From Catenovulum sediminis (lineage in GTDB: Bacteria > Pseudomonadota > Gammaproteobacteria > Enterobacterales > Alteromonadaceae), in the NCBI RefSeq assembly GCF_007289895.1, contig NZ_CP041661.1, forward strand, positions 124,001 to 188,000: a stretch of 64,000 bases of DNA, written 5' to 3'. Every line of letters starts with the position of its first letter. Position 1 is the stretch's first letter. A program made the translations under genes and the position numbers. Under the pieces are notes generated by a model. It saw nothing but the letters and a program-made list of their open reading frames with translations. It ran no database searches and was not told where the DNA came from. This document shows positions 17,284-63,591 of the stretch, piece after piece.

Positions 17284-17334
17284 GTTCGCTCCAACTATTA
17301 CTCGTGATACTTACCAGTAATCAATCACCACTTC

Positions 17335-17430
17335 TAGGTTTTAGTGTTATATCATTTATAGGTTTTGATGTCACACTACTTATAGGTTTTAATGATTATC
17401 CGTTTTTAGGCTTTAACGCTCATTTCATTA
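17335..17430. repeat. Four imperfect 24-bp tandem repeats upstream of the Fic gene
   Basis: The core TAGGTTTTA (TAGGCTTTA in the last copy) recurs at 17335, 17359, 17383 and 17407, exactly 24 bases apart. The remaining bases of each unit are only loosely conserved. The array ends about 52 bases upstream of the Fic start codon, in its promoter region. Iteron-like or operator repeats are possible. The plus-strand translation gives an 8-residue repeat (for example LIGFNDYP), but no convincing gene. Confidence 0.7.
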
Positions 17431-40574: not shown

Positions 40575-40976
40575 AAGAAAATTCGTTGACGCGGGCTTTG
40601 AGCTGCGAGCTGCGCATGTAGTGTAGGTCGCGCCTTTAGGCCGACAAAGCAGCGGGCTACGAGCTGCGAGCTACGCATGTAGTGTAGGTCGCGCCTTTAG
40701 GCCGACAAAAGCAGCGGGCTTTGAGCTTCGAGCTACGAGCTTCGAGCTTCGAGTTTCGAGTTTCGAGTTTCGAGTTTCGAGTTTCACAAATAGTGTGGGT
40801 CGTCCCTTTAGGGCGACATTGTGCAGATTGCAAGATTTGTCGGGCTGAAGCCGCGACCTACATTATTGAGTTTCGAGTTTCGAGTTTCGAGTTTTGAGCT
40901 TTTAGCTTCACAACCAATGTGGGTCGTCCCTTTAGGGCGACATTGTGCATATTGCAAGATTTGTCGGGCTGAAGCC
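40575..40976. repeat. REP/BIME-like palindromes with 7-bp tandem repeats, left block
   Basis: Hairpins with a GTAG or GTGG lead and a GTCG...GCC-TTTA-GGC...CGAC stem occur at 40623-40645, 40684-40706, 40795-40817 and 40919-40941. Inverted partners (GTCGGGCTGAAGCCGCGAC then CTAC) occur at 40839-40861 and from 40963, the last cut by the IS4-type element at 40976. Between pairs lie runs of 7-base units such as GAGTTTC and GAGCTTC (about 40725-40784 and 40866-40906). The lead tetranucleotide plus imperfect palindrome, in head-to-head pairs, is the structure of REP/BIME elements mobilised by RAYT transposases. Confidence 0.8.
40967..40976. repeat. Target-site duplication of IS4-type element, left copy
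   Basis: GGCTGAAGCC occurs immediately left of the element and again at 42264-42273. The sequence is the stem and apex of the REP-like palindrome. Confidence 0.85.
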
Positions 40977-42176
40977 TTAGGGATCCCCACAATTAAGGTG
41001 ACATCTCGTTTCCATAATGAGTAACTCAAAAGCTTCTTGGAGCATCGAATTTGTTATAGCAAAACTTGAATTCAGCAATATTCTTTTGGCCAGATAGCAA
41101 TATGATAAGACACGCCTTCGCTTTTCGGTATTGGCCTGAAAGTGTCGGTGATAACCTTGCAATTCTGCAGCTTTTCCAATGACGTATAGTTGCCACTGAG
41201 CCAGCAAAGCGATGAGTAGCAATGCCTGTAAACGCTCGATAGATTGGCTTCTAGAGCGCCTTAAGCCCAGCCCATAATATTCGTTTTTAGTGTCTCTAAA
41301 AGCTTCTTCTATTGTCATTCTACGCTTGTAAATATTAACCAGAGCAAGAGCAGAAAACTCATCTTCAGGTAGATTACTGACCAGAAACCAGGGCTCACTG
41401 TTACCTTTTGAATATTTTTTATAGCTGTTGCAGTTAGGTCGTTTCGTGGGTTTTTTGTGTTTCTTTGGTGGGGGTGATGTTTTATACAAGACGCCTCTGC
41501 AAGACCACTTGTGTTGTTTTGATAAGACTAAACCTTTTAAGGTAGTGGGTTTTGTTTTGGCCTGTGAGTGATAGGCATCCACCAATGTCCATTCTGAGTT
41601 ATCATCTGTTTTACATTTTACAGTACCGCGAGTACGTGCAAGCCAATACCAATTTAATTTATCAATTGCTTTGAACCATGGCACTTTAAATCCAGCGTCT
41701 GTAACAATCACAGGACAACACTCATCGGGCAGAATCTGCTTTAAATTCTGAAGAAACTTGACATGAATTTTATGGTTATTCATAGCGCCTTCAGCGTGTA
41801 CCTCTTCATAGATGGTAAAAGCTCGACCATCAAATGCGACCGAAGCTCGAAGTAGTACAAAGCTTTGGTCGTAAACACTTGACCAGTCAACAATAATGGG
41901 CATAGCACCCTCAATTCCACCCGTTAAATAAGCGGTCAGAGTCTTATAAAATTGCGTGCGGTTTTGTTGTAATTTCTCATTTTTAAGTAATCTATCAACA
42001 CGTTTGATGCAATGTTTTTCTGTAGTGGAAGGGCTTTGCTCACCAAGTGTTCTGCCAATCGCGGTTAGGCTTAACTTCGCACCATGTTGAACACAAGAAA
42101 CGGTATCGGAGAGTGCCTTTTTAATTCGTTTATCCAGTGCTATTGAATTTTCTGAAAGCAAGTTTGATAATAACAA
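40977..42176 (-). CDS. IS4-family DDE transposase
   Basis: The 399-residue protein has the DDE triad in order: first aspartate in PIIVDWSSV, second in VIVTDAGFKVPWF, and the glutamate within the IS4 signature Y-(2)-R-(3)-E-(6)-K, seen as YKRRMTIEEAFRDTK. It cuts and pastes the element. The stop codon TAA is supplied by the outermost three bases of the terminal repeat, a compact arrangement. The reading frame is intact, so the element may be active. Confidence 0.93.
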   Translation of the reverse strand: MLLSNLLSENSIALDKRIKKALSDTVSCVQHGAKLSLTAIGRTLGEQSPSTTEKHCIKRVDRLLKNEKLQQNRTQFYKTLTAYLTGGIEGAMPIIVDWSSVYDQSFVLLRASVAFDGRAFTIYEEVHAEGAMNNHKIHVKFLQNLKQILPDECCPVIVTDAGFKVPWFKAIDKLNWYWLARTRGTVKCKTDDNSEWTLVDAYHSQAKTKPTTLKGLVLSKQHKWSCRGVLYKTSPPPKKHKKPTKRPNCNSYKKYSKGNSEPWFLVSNLPEDEFSALALVNIYKRRMTIEEAFRDTKNEYYGLGLRRSRSQSIERLQALLLIALLAQWQLYVIGKAAELQGYHRHFQANTEKRRRVLSYCYLAKRILLNSSFAITNSMLQEAFELLIMETRCHLNCGDP

Positions 42177-42263
42177 TTTGATGCCCCTTGTTGTAACTTG
42201 TTTTTGGCGAAATTAGTTTAACCAATAAGTGGGCATCTCTTCAAAATTTGTGGGGAGCCTTAA
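40977..42263 (-). mobile_element. Complete IS4-family insertion sequence
   Basis: The element is 1,287 bases long. Its ends begin TTAGGGATCCCCACAA on the left and, read inward, TTAAGGCTCCCCACAA on the right: 16-base terminal inverted repeats with two mismatches. It is flanked by a 10-base duplication GGCTGAAGCC. The single transposase gene fills most of it. The intact gene, matched ends and perfect duplication point to a recent insertion. Confidence 0.9.
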
Positions 42264-42273
42264 GGCTGAAGCC
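42264..42273. repeat. Target-site duplication of IS4-type element, right copy
   Basis: GGCTGAAGCC repeats the left copy exactly; the interrupted REP-like palindrome resumes here and ends with CTAC at 42282. Confidence 0.85.
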
Positions 42274-42745
42274 GCGACCTACATTTTTGGGCTTCGAGCT
42301 TCGAGCTTCGAGCTTCGAGCTTCACAACCAATGTGGGTCGTCCCTTTAGGGCGACATTGTGCAGATTGCAAGATTTGTCGGGCTGAAGCCGCGACCTACA
42401 TTATTGAGTTTTGAGTTTTGAGTTTTGAGTTTTGAGTTTTGAGTTTTGAGTTTTGAGCTTTGAGCTTTGAGCTTTGAGCTTTGAGCTTCACAACCAGTGT
42501 GGGTCGTCCCTTTAGGGCGACATTGTGCATATTGCAAGATTTTTCGGGCTGAAGCCGCGACCTACATTTTTGAGTTTCGAGCTTCGAGTTTCGAGTTTCG
42601 AGTTTCGAGTTTCGAGTTTCGAGCTTCGAGCTTCGAGTTTCGAGCTTCGAGTTTCGAGTTTCGAGTTTCACAAATAGTGTGGGTCGTCCCTTTAGGGCGA
42701 CATTGTGCAGATTGCAAGATTTGTCGTCCCTTTAGGCCGACAAAG
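42274..42745. repeat. REP/BIME-like palindromes with 7-bp tandem repeats, right block
   Basis: GTGG-led hairpins lie at 42333-42355, 42499-42521 and 42679-42701. Inverted partners lie at 42377-42399 and 42543-42565, with an altered one at 42723-42741. Heptamer runs separate the pairs: GAGCTTC (about 42290-42323), GAGTTTT changing to GAGCTTT (about 42405-42487) and mixed GAGTTTC/GAGCTTC (about 42572-42669). The spacer between hairpins of a pair (ATTGTGCAGATTGCAAGATT) is also conserved. Each run has its own dominant variant. Confidence 0.8.
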
Positions 42746-42844
42746 GCAGCGGGCTTTGAACTAAGATTTAATAAAAGATAGATTTCCTCTAGAAATAAAG
42801 TCCGGTGTTTACGCCGACAAATTCTGCAATAAACATTTGTCGCC

Positions 42845-44359
42845 TTAAAAAGACGACTTACAAAATTTATCAATATATTGCTGATGCGTTGGTAATTGTT
42901 TAGCCGCTGCAGCCATCGCCGCTTTTAGTTTATTTAACCACGCCTGTGAGTCATTCGTTCTGTGTGCCATTAATGGTTCATAATTTTGTGGAATGTTAAA
43001 TTGCCCAATGTGCACTGCTAACCAACTTGCTTTACCAAATAAATCCATTTCGCTCGATATCAATCGCCCGTAACGTTTAAAATGTTCAATTTTATATTGC
43101 AGCGAATCTGGGATCGCCATGCTGGCACAATAACGCCACATTTCACTGTCTTGACGTTCGGTTAACCGATAATGCAAAATTAAAAAATCCCGAATGTTTT
43201 CAATTTCTTTTATTGCAACTCGGTTATATTCATCGATAACCAATGGATCAAAATCTTTGTCCGGAAACAAGGCCAATAGTTTAGCGACTCCAGTTTGGAT
43301 TAAGTGAATGCTAGTCGATTCCAAGGGCTCTAAAAATCCACTGGATAATCCAATCGCAACCACATTTTTATGCCAGAATAAATTTCTTCGCCCAGTTTTA
43401 AACTTCAGTAATTTCGCATCCGTTAGTCTTTTACCGTCTAAATTTTCTAACAAAATATCGCATGCCTGTGTTTCTGACATAAATTGACCACTGAATACAT
43501 GTCCGTTGCCAGTTCTATGTTGTAGCGGAATACGCCATTGCCAGCCTGCCTGATGGGCGATAGATCGGGTATAGGGTGTCAATGTTGTTTTTTCACTTGC
43601 GACCGCCCATGCACTGTCACAAGGTAACCAATGATCCCAAGCTTGATAGCCCGTTTTTAAAGCACCTTCGATTAAAATGCCGCGAAAGCCCGAACAATCG
43701 ATAAATAAATCAGCAGTTAGGGTCTCGCCATTTTGCATTGTAACAGACTGTACAAACCCTGAATCTGGATTAAGTGTGACATTATCCACTTTACCTTCAA
43801 TACGCTTTACCCCTTTATTTTCTGCGTATTTGCGTAAAAACTGAGCGTACAAGCCCGCATCAAAATGATAAGCGTATTCATAAGTTGATAATACATTGCG
43901 CGGATCTCTGTTAGGTGGTGCAAATTTACCTTCACGCGCTGCAGCCCAAGCCATACAATAATCATCTAACGAACTGGCTTGTTGGTTTTGAAATGCTTGC
44001 AACCAATATTGATGCATATTCACCATATCAAAAGGTCGGCCAAAACTCCCAAACGGGTGAAAATAACTGTGTTGTTCACGTCCCCAGTTGACAAACTCAA
44101 TGCCTAGCTTAAAAGTGCCTTTTGTTGCACGCACAAAGTCATTTTCATCAATGCCCAATGTTTGATTAAAAACACGAATGGGCGGTATGGTTGCTTCCCC
44201 TACTCCAACCGTTCCAATTGCTTCAGATTCAATTAGAGTAACCTCACAACCTTGTTGCAACGCATTGGCAAGCGCCGCTGCGGTCATCCAGCCCGCGGTT
44301 CCGCCACCAACAATCAATACTTTTTTTATGCTTTTAGATTTAGACTGTGCTGTTTGCAT
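42845..44359 (-). CDS. Flavin-dependent tryptophan halogenase family protein
   Basis: The 504-residue protein has the FAD-binding VLIVGGGTAGWMTAAALA, the halogenase-specific AGWQWRIPLQ (WxWxIP motif), a lysine in GTFKLGIEFVNW at the position of the catalytic lysine of PrnA, and SSGFLEPLESTSIHL. These enzymes halogenate aromatic substrates with reduced flavin and oxygen. In Alteromonadales, relatives sit beside TonB receptors for polysaccharides and may act on glycan-linked or other substrates. Its ATG overlaps the stop of the preceding oxygenase gene (TAATG). Confidence 0.9.
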   Translation of the reverse strand: MQTAQSKSKSIKKVLIVGGGTAGWMTAAALANALQQGCEVTLIESEAIGTVGVGEATIPPIRVFNQTLGIDENDFVRATKGTFKLGIEFVNWGREQHSYFHPFGSFGRPFDMVNMHQYWLQAFQNQQASSLDDYCMAWAAAREGKFAPPNRDPRNVLSTYEYAYHFDAGLYAQFLRKYAENKGVKRIEGKVDNVTLNPDSGFVQSVTMQNGETLTADLFIDCSGFRGILIEGALKTGYQAWDHWLPCDSAWAVASEKTTLTPYTRSIAHQAGWQWRIPLQHRTGNGHVFSGQFMSETQACDILLENLDGKRLTDAKLLKFKTGRRNLFWHKNVVAIGLSSGFLEPLESTSIHLIQTGVAKLLALFPDKDFDPLVIDEYNRVAIKEIENIRDFLILHYRLTERQDSEMWRYCASMAIPDSLQYKIEHFKRYGRLISSEMDLFGKASWLAVHIGQFNIPQNYEPLMAHRTNDSQAWLNKLKAAMAAAAKQLPTHQQYIDKFCKSSF

Positions 44360-45851
44360 TAATTTATTCTCTTGTTTGTTCTGGCGACATCAAATGCAAC
44401 CACCAAGCGTTCACCTTCATTAAAAGGAACAGTTGAGTGCCAGCTATAAGAAGGAAACAAAACCAAACGACCAATTTTAGGCTCGATTTTATTAACCGGC
44501 TCCAGTTCAATGTTTAACTCAGGTGGGGGGTGCCAAACTTGAGCCATCCGGCCGGTGGCGTGCCCATTTCAGTTTTTTTAGGTAAATCGATATAAAGCGC
44601 AGAACTAATCCAACCGAGTGGATGTGTATGGCTGACATTAAACCCTTGGGCTTGCAAGCGCACCGACCAACTTCCTGAAAACTGAATCATTCCGTTTTTA
44701 ATTTGCTCACGGTTAGCCGTGTTTAACGGGTGATCCGCGTCCAGTAATGGCAACTCTTGATTATATCGGCAGATTTGCCTTTCAATACGGTGTTTCAATT
44801 GTCGGATAATAGGTTCATGGCGCAAAAACAAGTTTTGGTTTGTTTGCGTCCCGCCTCGAACAGATTGCTCGGCAAACGGCGCGCTTGCTGTGTGTAAATG
44901 ACGTAATGTCGCGCCTAACTCAGCCATTTGCTTAGCGGTTAAATCAATGTCATAACTTTTTATAAGCGCTGGATTATCTAGCCATTGTGCTTTGGTATTA
45001 TCTTGCAGCCGCCAGATAAGCGTAAGATAAGGCCAAAAAACAGCAGCCGATTCGGTGTTTACATAGGTCAGTGCAATTTTTTCCGCTGTTGAGATATTCC
45101 GTTTTTTTAAACAAAAGCGCAAATATGCCATATCACGTACAACATGATTTATATTTTCAGTTTGAATAAATAAATTTTCTGCTAATTTATCATCGCCTGA
45201 TTCACTGGCAATAAAGGTACGTGCTACTTTTAGCTCAATATTATTTGCGAAATATTTTTCTGCTTGCTGAATAATCTGTAGCGCACGGGGCCAATCTTTT
45301 AATTGAGCAGTAGCCTGATACCAAGCCAACCAAAGATGTAAGTTTTTGGGTTGCGCACGACACGCTTGCTGATATGAATGTGTAAACGTCTGTGTTTTGC
45401 CGCTTGTATACCTTTGTGTTGTTAATAATTTATGGCCGTCTAGCCAATCAGGACAATCTCGTAATACTGCAGATAGGATTGCGTCAGCTTTATCGACTTG
45501 TTGATCGGCTACCAGTGCTGACGCGTAACCGCGCAGCGCATTTAAATCAGTGGGGGCTATTTTGATAACTTGCAAAAATGCATCTTGTGCATCGAAACCT
45601 GCAAGATAACGACTTTGTGCATATGCCATTGCACTGTCATAATCGTTTGGTTTAAATTTTAACGCCTGCTGTAAGGCTTTAGCTGCTTCAGGTTCTAACT
45701 GCGCTTGATGATATGCATAGCCTAATAATTTCCAAACTTCGAACTTCGATGAATCAGATTCGATAAAAGCATTCAGTTGATTTATGGCTCTTTCAATATG
45801 TCCGTTTTGTATATCTTGCTGAGCTTGTTGTAATAATTTGTTTAATTGCAA
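44359..45851 (-). pseudogene. TPR / 2OG-Fe(II) oxygenase-like protein, one frameshift
   Basis: The first part, from a TTG at 45851 (GGAG 10 bases upstream) to 44514, encodes TPR-like helices (KALQQALKFKPNDYDSAMAY and relatives). Then comes the start of an oxygenase domain with SHTHPLGWISSALYIDLP. The frame breaks in a C6 run near 44530 (W-L-K-F-G-T-P). One added C would join it to PPELNIELEPVNKIEPKIGR, LVLFPSYSWHSTVPFNEGER and LVVAFDVARTNK, completing the metal-binding H...H...R set. Either a real mutation or a sequencing error in the homopolymer. It is coupled to the halogenase gene and follows the TonB receptor gene. Confidence 0.75.
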
Positions 45852-45890
45852 ATTCCGTCTCCGAACAATAATACCTAGCTGAGCTAAAAT

Positions 45891-46344
45891 GTCGGGCTGA
45901 AGCCGCGACCTACATTTTGGAGCTTTGAGCTTTGAGCTACGAGCTACGCATGTAGTGTAGGTCGCGCCTTTAGGCCGACAAAGCAGCGAACTGCGAGTTT
46001 CAAGCTTCAAGTTTCGAGCTTCGAGCTTCGAGCTTCGAGCTTCGAGCTTCGAGCTTCGAGCTACGAGCTTTGAGCTTTGAGCTTTGAGCTACGCATTTAG
46101 TGTAGGTCGCGCCTTTAGGCCGACAAAAGCAGCAAACTACAAGTTTCAAGTTTCAAGTTTCAAGTTTCAAGTTTCAAGTTTCAAGTTTCAAGTTTCAAGT
46201 TTCAAGTTTCAAGTTTCACAACCAGTGTGGGTCGTTCCTTTAGGGCGACATTGTACATATTGCAAGATTTGTCGGGCTGAAGCCGCGACCTACATTTTTA
46301 AGCTTTGAGCTTCTCATGTAGTGTAGGTCATGGCTTTAGCCGAC
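45891..46344. repeat. REP/BIME-like palindromes with 7-bp tandem repeats, operon-internal block
   Basis: GTAG- or GTGG-led hairpins lie at 45957-45979, 46102-46124, 46227-46249 and 46323-46344. Inverted partners lie at 45891-45913 and 46271-46293. The heptamer runs are GAGCTTC-type at about 45990-46095 and about 11 copies of CAAGTTT at 46140-46217. The block lies between the TonB receptor stop and the TPR/oxygenase start, inside the likely transcription unit, where such hairpins could protect the upstream receptor mRNA. Confidence 0.8.

Positions 46345-60297: not shown

Positions 60298-63591
<3,294 letters not shown>

Follow-up and report, generated by a model that had tools for sequence, protein, structure and literature searches.

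GTAG-type REP elements joined by heptamer repeats in Catenovulum sediminis, a genome with a single RAYT gene

How do palindromic elements come to be strung together by tandem repeats of seven bases? The question is raised by an array spanning 40591–46293 of a 64,000-nucleotide stretch of Catenovulum sediminis (the window; C2:124001–188000 of a 4.87-Mb genome of two contigs, C1 and C2), in which hairpins alternate with runs of heptamers. An earlier note on this DNA took the hairpins for repetitive extragenic palindromes (REPs) of the kind served by REP-associated tyrosine transposases (RAYTs), and the heptamers for repeats that had slipped after spreading. Our analysis establishes the hairpins as GTAG-type REP/bacterial interspersed mosaic elements (BIMEs). 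The explanation that we favour, with a probability of roughly two in three, is that a heptamer repeat prone to slippage forms the GTAG flank in a known REP/RAYT family.

A strict pattern locates 14 GTAG- or GTGG-led hairpins in the window, all inside 40623–46293, and none across 20 base-shuffled copies of it; the earlier note, which counted about eleven, is thereby confirmed. Beyond this set lie a degenerate hairpin at 42543–42565, a tagless one at 42723–42741 and a copy split by an insertion sequence (IS). Five hairpins have clear inverted partners (40795/40839, 40919 with the IS-split copy, 42333/42377, 42499/42543 and 46227/46271). Six or more such pairs had been proposed; the sixth site, 42679, is degenerate, its partner at the usual 21-nt distance being the tagless hairpin. 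The inner spacer, put at about 20 conserved bases, is 21 nt long and reads ATTGTGCAKATTGCAAGATTT with few changes. Paired stems fall into two types, labelled here Z (GTCGTCCCTTTAGGGCGAC and similar) and Y (GTCGCGGCTTYAGCCCGAC), and Z faces Y across the spacer. An RNA family was considered and rejected: the Rfam scan gave three matches, all to microRNA models and far below gathering scores.

The 7-base runs said to link the pairs are present, eight of them having at least four units (9, 5, 4, 12, 14, 4, 14 and 11), all read on the plus strand. The array opens at 40591–40737 (+) with 2.4 copies (TRF) of a 61-bp unit made of heptamers and a single GTAG REP (strict pattern, 40623–40645 and 40684–40706). 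Nine units, five of them GAGTTTC (40723–40785), lead to an inverted pair with a 21-nt spacer (40795–40861; GTGG-led 40795–40817 on plus, GTAG-led 40839–40861 on minus), and five units (40868–40902) to a second, at 40919–40976, comprising a GTGG-led REP (40919–40941) and the left half of its IS-cut partner. The right half of that partner (42264–42286, −) is followed by four GAGCTTC units (42296–42323) and a strict-pattern pair (42333–42399; 42333–42355 on plus, 42377–42399 on minus); then come 12 units, GAGTTTT giving way to GAGCTTT (42406–42489), a pair whose minus-strand member is degenerate (42499–42565; 42499–42521 and 42543–42565), 14 units, ten GAGTTTC and four GAGCTTC (42572–42669), and the sixth site (42679–42741; REP 42679–42701, +, then the tagless hairpin). 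The final block, which we call block 3, starts with a GTAG REP (45891–45913, −) on the 5′ side of a tetratricopeptide repeat/2-oxoglutarate (TPR/2OG) gene, continues through four units (45920–45947), a GTAG REP (45957–45979, +), 14 units, six of them GAGCTTC (45995–46092), a further GTAG REP (46102–46124, +) and 11 units, all AAGTTTC (46141–46217), and ends in an inverted pair (46227–46293; 46227–46249 on plus, 46271–46293 on minus); all its REPs fit the strict pattern.

The split REP accounts for part of this layout. An IS4-family element (NF033591, 307 bits) occupies 40977–42263 (−; transposase open reading frame 40977–42176, −) and interrupts the Y stem; 10 bp, GGCTGAAGCC, are duplicated on its two sides, at 40967–40976 and 42264–42273. 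Three copies were found in the genome, the others at C1:600755–602041 and C1:864309–865595, and all three interrupt a Y-type REP at an identical position, flanked by the 10-bp duplication GGCTRAAGCC: the element is a REP-targeting IS. Because it inserted within a REP, the first two of the three blocks described in the earlier note are a single block, leaving two.

Searching the whole genome, as the earlier note had proposed, gave 157 matches to the Y and 121 to the Z REP query (at most 3 mismatches) and none to reversed controls; the queries differ at 7 places, so no site matches both. Match positions are complete only within the fetched stretches, and REP patterns differ between analyses, so that totals differ too. 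A looser pattern counts 292 copies across the window and 35 fetched loci, 36 stretches in all, which were mostly chosen through REP or heptamer matches. These hold 88 facing pairs, with spacers of 21–22 nt in 25 and 33–36 nt in 40, and the spacer has a weak 7-bp period of its own (0.397 at lag 7 versus 0.21–0.31 at other lags up to 13).

A single RAYT gene is present, at C1:646952–647482, outside the window, from which it had correctly been reported absent. It is the sole Y1_Tnp match and fits the profile NF047646 (REP_Tyr_transpos) with 130.6 bits against a cut-off of 80. Its frame is open (176 aa) and carries an HFH motif and a later tyrosine, presumably the catalytic residues. The gene adjoins polysaccharide genes, and matching REPs with heptamer linkers stand upstream of it and again downstream from about 730 bp past the stop, which bears out the REP and RAYT reading. 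One upstream linker is 46 nt long (4+42; L034:16651–16696); the others there show, by eye, a 7-bp period in degenerate form, and the long homogeneous runs therefore look like expansions of a degenerate ancestor. REPs crowd around the gene: 114 of 278 matches fall within 70 kb (C1:596787–667157, L032–L035, part of it polysaccharide genes), about 28 times the even density for bounds set by the outermost matches themselves. Local hopping or a permissive region could be the cause. Three observations had been named as fatal to the REP reading, namely no further copies, no RAYT gene, or one duplicated locus; we find copies genome-wide and a RAYT, and reject a single duplicated locus, block 3 lying at a different gene junction and the IS explaining the first split.

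What binds heptamers to REPs is a rule of length. Across the 36 stretches, 57 linkers join back-to-back REPs (CTAC...GTAG), 54 of them connecting a Z to a non-Z REP, and 45 are 4+7n nucleotides long (37 of the 48 distinct sequences), as is the 46-nt linker beside the RAYT. Linker autocorrelation reaches 0.62 at lag 7, 0.59 at lag 14 and 0.55 at lag 21, and is 0.15–0.26 at lags up to 20 other than multiples of 7. The ends recur as ATTTTAG...RAGCTGT: among the 37 distinct 4+7n linkers, 25 start ATTT and 20 end GAGCTGT. Heptamer patterns fix several letters, making any conservation read from them circular, and the unit table was drawn instead from linkers bounded by REPs; it has A at position 2 in 161 and G at position 3 in 159 of 196 units. 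Heptamers that form part of the dispersed unit would explain why linkers are mostly 4+7n with recurring ends.

The association extends to sequence sampled in other ways. In 20 evenly spaced 20-kb stretches of C1 (REPs in 3 of the 20), a REP stands no more than 151 bp from 14 of the 15 runs of at least three units, and the remaining run is a degenerate triplet; these 15 runs in 400 kb compare with 0.2 in base-shuffled copies, which, together with the 20 hairpin-free shuffled windows, rejects chance. A search free of heptamer letters in the 80 kb around the RAYT finds 27 lag-7 tracts, of which 26 have a REP no more than 60 bp away, and no tracts at lags 5, 6, 8 or 9. At L051:676–1496 (C1:2678500–2681000), GAGCTAC ×13, AAGTTTC ×19 and GAGTTGC ×32 surround two REPs. 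The heptamers also favour one side. Around 48 REP clusters in REP-chosen loci, at least two heptamers occupy 49 of 78 outer GTAG sides and 2 of 18 outer stem sides; around 8 clusters in heptamer-chosen loci the bias is weaker (9 of 10 and 4 of 6).

Might the heptamers have been there first? Intergenic RAGYTTY microsatellites could have served as landing pads, REPs inserting at the C|T of the unit. RAYTs of E. coli and Stenotrophomonas do cut single-stranded REP DNA at CT (PMC8266576), and the last unit before GTAG is GAGC|TGT in 20 of 37 linkers. Of 394 genomes in the order, 23 (our own among them) also contain arrays of four RAGYTTY units, versus 2 of 394 for a permuted heptamer, used since the reversed heptamer is a rotation of itself and no usable control. 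They stand alone, with no REP within 3 kb by a broad pattern, at the 32 distinct places inspected (50 loci, 26 other genomes; part of the places present in those genomes); the same pattern finds REPs in 7 of 7 own loci from the same heptamer query, all seven being one site. Yet pads of this kind predict heptamers on both sides of a REP, against the 2 of 18 outer stem sides in REP-chosen loci (4 of 6 in heptamer-chosen ones); among our own stretches fetched there is one REP-free array, and four-unit arrays are present in 6 of 78 relatives, with our own genome counted, and in 0 of 7 congeners. We consider this order of events unlikely. Elsewhere REPs and RAGYTTY arrays occur apart, and their fusion on the GTAG side is seen only in our genome. 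Two further arrays merit description: 9.3 TAGGTTC units just past a gene in Shewanella hanedai (L081:8630–8694), with no REP seen nearby, and a lone array in another family (L253, G244) that mixes 7-bp GAGCTTC with 8-bp GAGCTTTC and adjoins degenerate GGCTGAC heptamers.

Within runs the units are homogenised. Adjacent units are identical in 0.648 of cases (76 runs, 655 units, the same 36 stretches), compared with 0.134 (maximum 0.181) after redistribution of units across runs and 0.536 (maximum 0.575) after shuffling within them, and none of 1000 shuffles of either kind reached the observed value; that each run is dominated by its own variant is thereby upheld. By comparison, identity among the four intact pair cores of the window ranges from 76/84 to 79/82, with 4 to 14 units per run. 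With runs homogenised and variable in length and cores near-identical, whole-unit gain and loss therefore seems faster than change in the cores. Slippage or unequal exchange would fit this pattern, and to that extent slippage after spreading, the earlier suggestion, agrees with the data, a fit that falls short of proof. Heptamer repeats are over-represented in bacteria, for which polymerase slippage has been proposed as the reason (PMC4692102, PMC4679880). RAGYTTY arrays are present in G018 and G064, genomes without a RAYT-family match at E≤0.001, and slippage is therefore a sufficient explanation.

The position of the array leaves room for another agent, the RAYT itself, which might add and remove heptamers by single-strand cutting and rejoining at the unit's C|T, the arrays being a by-product. 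The E. coli enzyme cuts on the 5′ or 3′ side, GTAG being taken as its guide, and strand transfer at CT is shown for it; a Marinomonas RAYT cuts CT and CA (PMC8266576). In our genome the array is mostly on the GTAG side, and for 52 of 142 Z REPs the nearest upstream CT stands 3 nt from GTAG, for 65 of 171 others 6 nt, a spacing such as a 5′ cut site would require and one that common descent of the flank explains as well. With A and G in its second and third positions, a unit also places CT on the complementary strand. Set against this, many units read AGTT and offer no CT there, 28 of the 142 Z REPs and 16 of the 171 others have no CT within 24 nt before GTAG, and the arrays of G018 and G064 occur in genomes with no RAYT-family match at the threshold given above.

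RAYT loci of other bacteria cut both ways. Among 68 named RAYT-relative loci, 36 have at least two REPs (broad pattern), and in 35 of these no REP has a 7-bp tract within 60 bp. The three lag-7 tracts that do lie so close are all in Psychromonas marina (L072), and no tract at lag 5, 6, 8 or 9 lies near a REP. Away from REPs there are seven more lag-7 tracts in the named loci and 8 in unnamed RAYT loci. The P. marina RAYT is 61% identical to ours, its REPs share the stem GTCGCGGCTTTAGCCCGAC, and its tracts (AGTTGTTAGTTATTAGCTG, AGTTGTT, AGTCATT and similar; L072 5300–5530 and 11560–12000) lie on the stem side, inside REP pairs. This species is thus a partial parallel, a second REP–heptamer link on the other side. 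The Z stem has a near-identical counterpart in Oceanospirillum linum (L078), where linkers lack a 7-bp period. In congeners, five RAYTs (L165, L166, L169, L171 and L172) match ours over 47 to 138 aa at 25–43% identity, two (L170, L175) show no match to it at E 1e-5, and of three further copies one (G005) is 56% and two are 37–39% identical; the stretches around these three contain no REP-like hairpin by the strict finder and no lag-7 tract near a REP. A second RAYT/REP locus with AG-led tracts beside its REPs lends something to the cut-and-rejoin proposal, as 7-bp tracts in only one of 36 loci with at least two REPs take from it; we rate it as doubtful, a shade below insertion into pre-existing repeats. 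The same doubt attaches to the idea that arrays are both product and substrate of the RAYT, lengthened, shortened and copied in 7-nt steps by cutting and joining at a C|T that units offer on one strand or both, the REP family writing its own tandem repeat; were it true, the Psychromonas tracts would represent another product of that activity. RAYT involvement in array change keeps a small probability, which those tracts raise a little.

The favoured explanation, a REP/RAYT family with a slippage-prone flank, would run as follows. By analogy with known systems, the RAYT, an HUH/Y1 REP transposase, would mobilise Z–Y units; their GTAG side, one place of known RAYT cutting, is occupied here by the repeat RAGYTNY, which would belong to the dispersed unit and travel with the REP. 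After dispersal, tracts would grow and shrink by whole heptamers, replication slippage and unequal exchange being the simplest mechanisms; this is expected to homogenise each run while cores stay nearly constant. We infer, then, movement of the units by the RAYT, with the heptamers as passengers and slippage as the cause of their changing number.

Several observations weigh against this account. Twelve of the 57 linkers break the 4+7n rule, two clear heptamers are missing from 29 of the 78 outer GTAG flanks, and the stem side carries heptamers at 4 of 6 heptamer-chosen places; the tract of P. marina, likewise on the stem side, means that such repeats need not be tied to GTAG. A run of 23 perfect GAGCTTC units at C2:266414–266574 (L059:1415–1575) has no REP in the 3 kb fetched, and heptamers can therefore stand alone in our own genome too. 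The Z REP (at most one mismatch; more distant REPs were not sought) occurs in no other of the 394 order genomes, and its spread is therefore untraceable. The loci were mostly selected by REP or heptamer, and the sole spaced sample was designed after the first results were known. Evidence comes from a single strain, in which movement and slippage are deduced rather than observed.

Blocks such as these might also be kept for a function, as transcription terminators, protectors of messenger RNA 3′ ends or insulators, with heptamers tuning the spacing. The window blocks sit between genes, with the exception of one REP-like hairpin (42839–42857, −) that contains the stop codon of the tryptophan halogenase (42845–44359, −), the last codons of which may therefore derive from a REP. 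Of five congener stretches that carry the halogenase, four preserve the window's arrangement of TonB receptor, TPR/2OG gene and halogenase, and the fifth shows the halogenase only. None of the five has a REP, which counts in favour of the REP/RAYT explanation; two remaining congeners, with best halogenase matches 50–52% identical, fall outside this comparison. Block 3 lies between the receptor and the TPR gene, where congener G005, the one compared for terminators, has a terminator-like hairpin of 12 pairs; the scan of the corresponding junction in the window gave no terminator-like match. One REP pair also folds well as single-stranded DNA (z −3.88; another −1.91). Array lengths are erratic, however, three heptamer stretches fold weakly or not at all (z −1.41, −1.86 and 1.03), and REPs also lie among transfer RNA genes and in the polysaccharide gene region. 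A selected role strikes us as improbable, well behind the other alternatives. Elsewhere in the window are two unrelated tandem repeats, of 24 bp in 3 copies (17327–17399) and of 12 bp in 4.8 copies (61175–61232). The window's halogenase has 16 matches in its own genome and 9 to 15 in each of seven congeners.

How REPs spread is described as poorly understood (PMC8266576). Here, in a genome with one RAYT, a countable rule locks REPs and heptamers together, mostly at 4+7n and mostly on the GTAG side; such a system lets one ask how a seven-letter repeat grows and travels. The earlier note knew of no heptamer link in BIMEs, and we found no report of REPs joined by heptamer repeats in open-licence literature, subscription papers being mostly outside the search; the claim holds to that extent and is qualified by the different 7-bp tract that spaces REPs in P. 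marina. Searched by their letters, the heptamers turn up within that literature in two apple papers only. Large REP clusters are reported as reiterated with flanking DNA of variable length (PMC3733652), in a main text from which the word heptamer is absent.

Among known systems, the closest are GTAG REPs and BIMEs with a RAYT (REPtrons, REPINs), which share the GTAG/GTGG tag, the short stem, the TTTAG/TTCAG loop, the inverted pairs, high copy number and a single RAYT flanked by REPs; unlike them, the linkers here on the GTAG side are a 7-bp tandem repeat, mostly of 4+7n. P. marina likewise has REPs with the GTCGCGGCTTTAGCCCGAC stem beside AG-led 7-bp tracts (AGTTGTTAGTTATTAGCTG, for example), but the unit is another, the tracts are short and their place is the stem side, within the pair, rather than the GTAG side. 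ISPpu9, an IS that inserts within REPs (PMC1525189), resembles our element in its choice of target, here in 3 of 3 copies found; ours belongs to the IS4 family and accounts for the split of block 1 only, not for the heptamers. Heptanucleotide simple sequence repeats, namely GGGNATC of Xanthomonas and Nostoc (PMC4692102), TAACTGA of marine Beggiatoaceae (PMC4679880) and, as a further comparison, those of cyanobacteria (Mazel 1990, cited in PMC4692102), are likewise 7-bp units, largely intergenic, at many loci and in variable number. They differ in unit and, in the portions of these sources consulted, are described as arrays alone, whereas the heptamers of C. sediminis mostly keep to one side of a REP.

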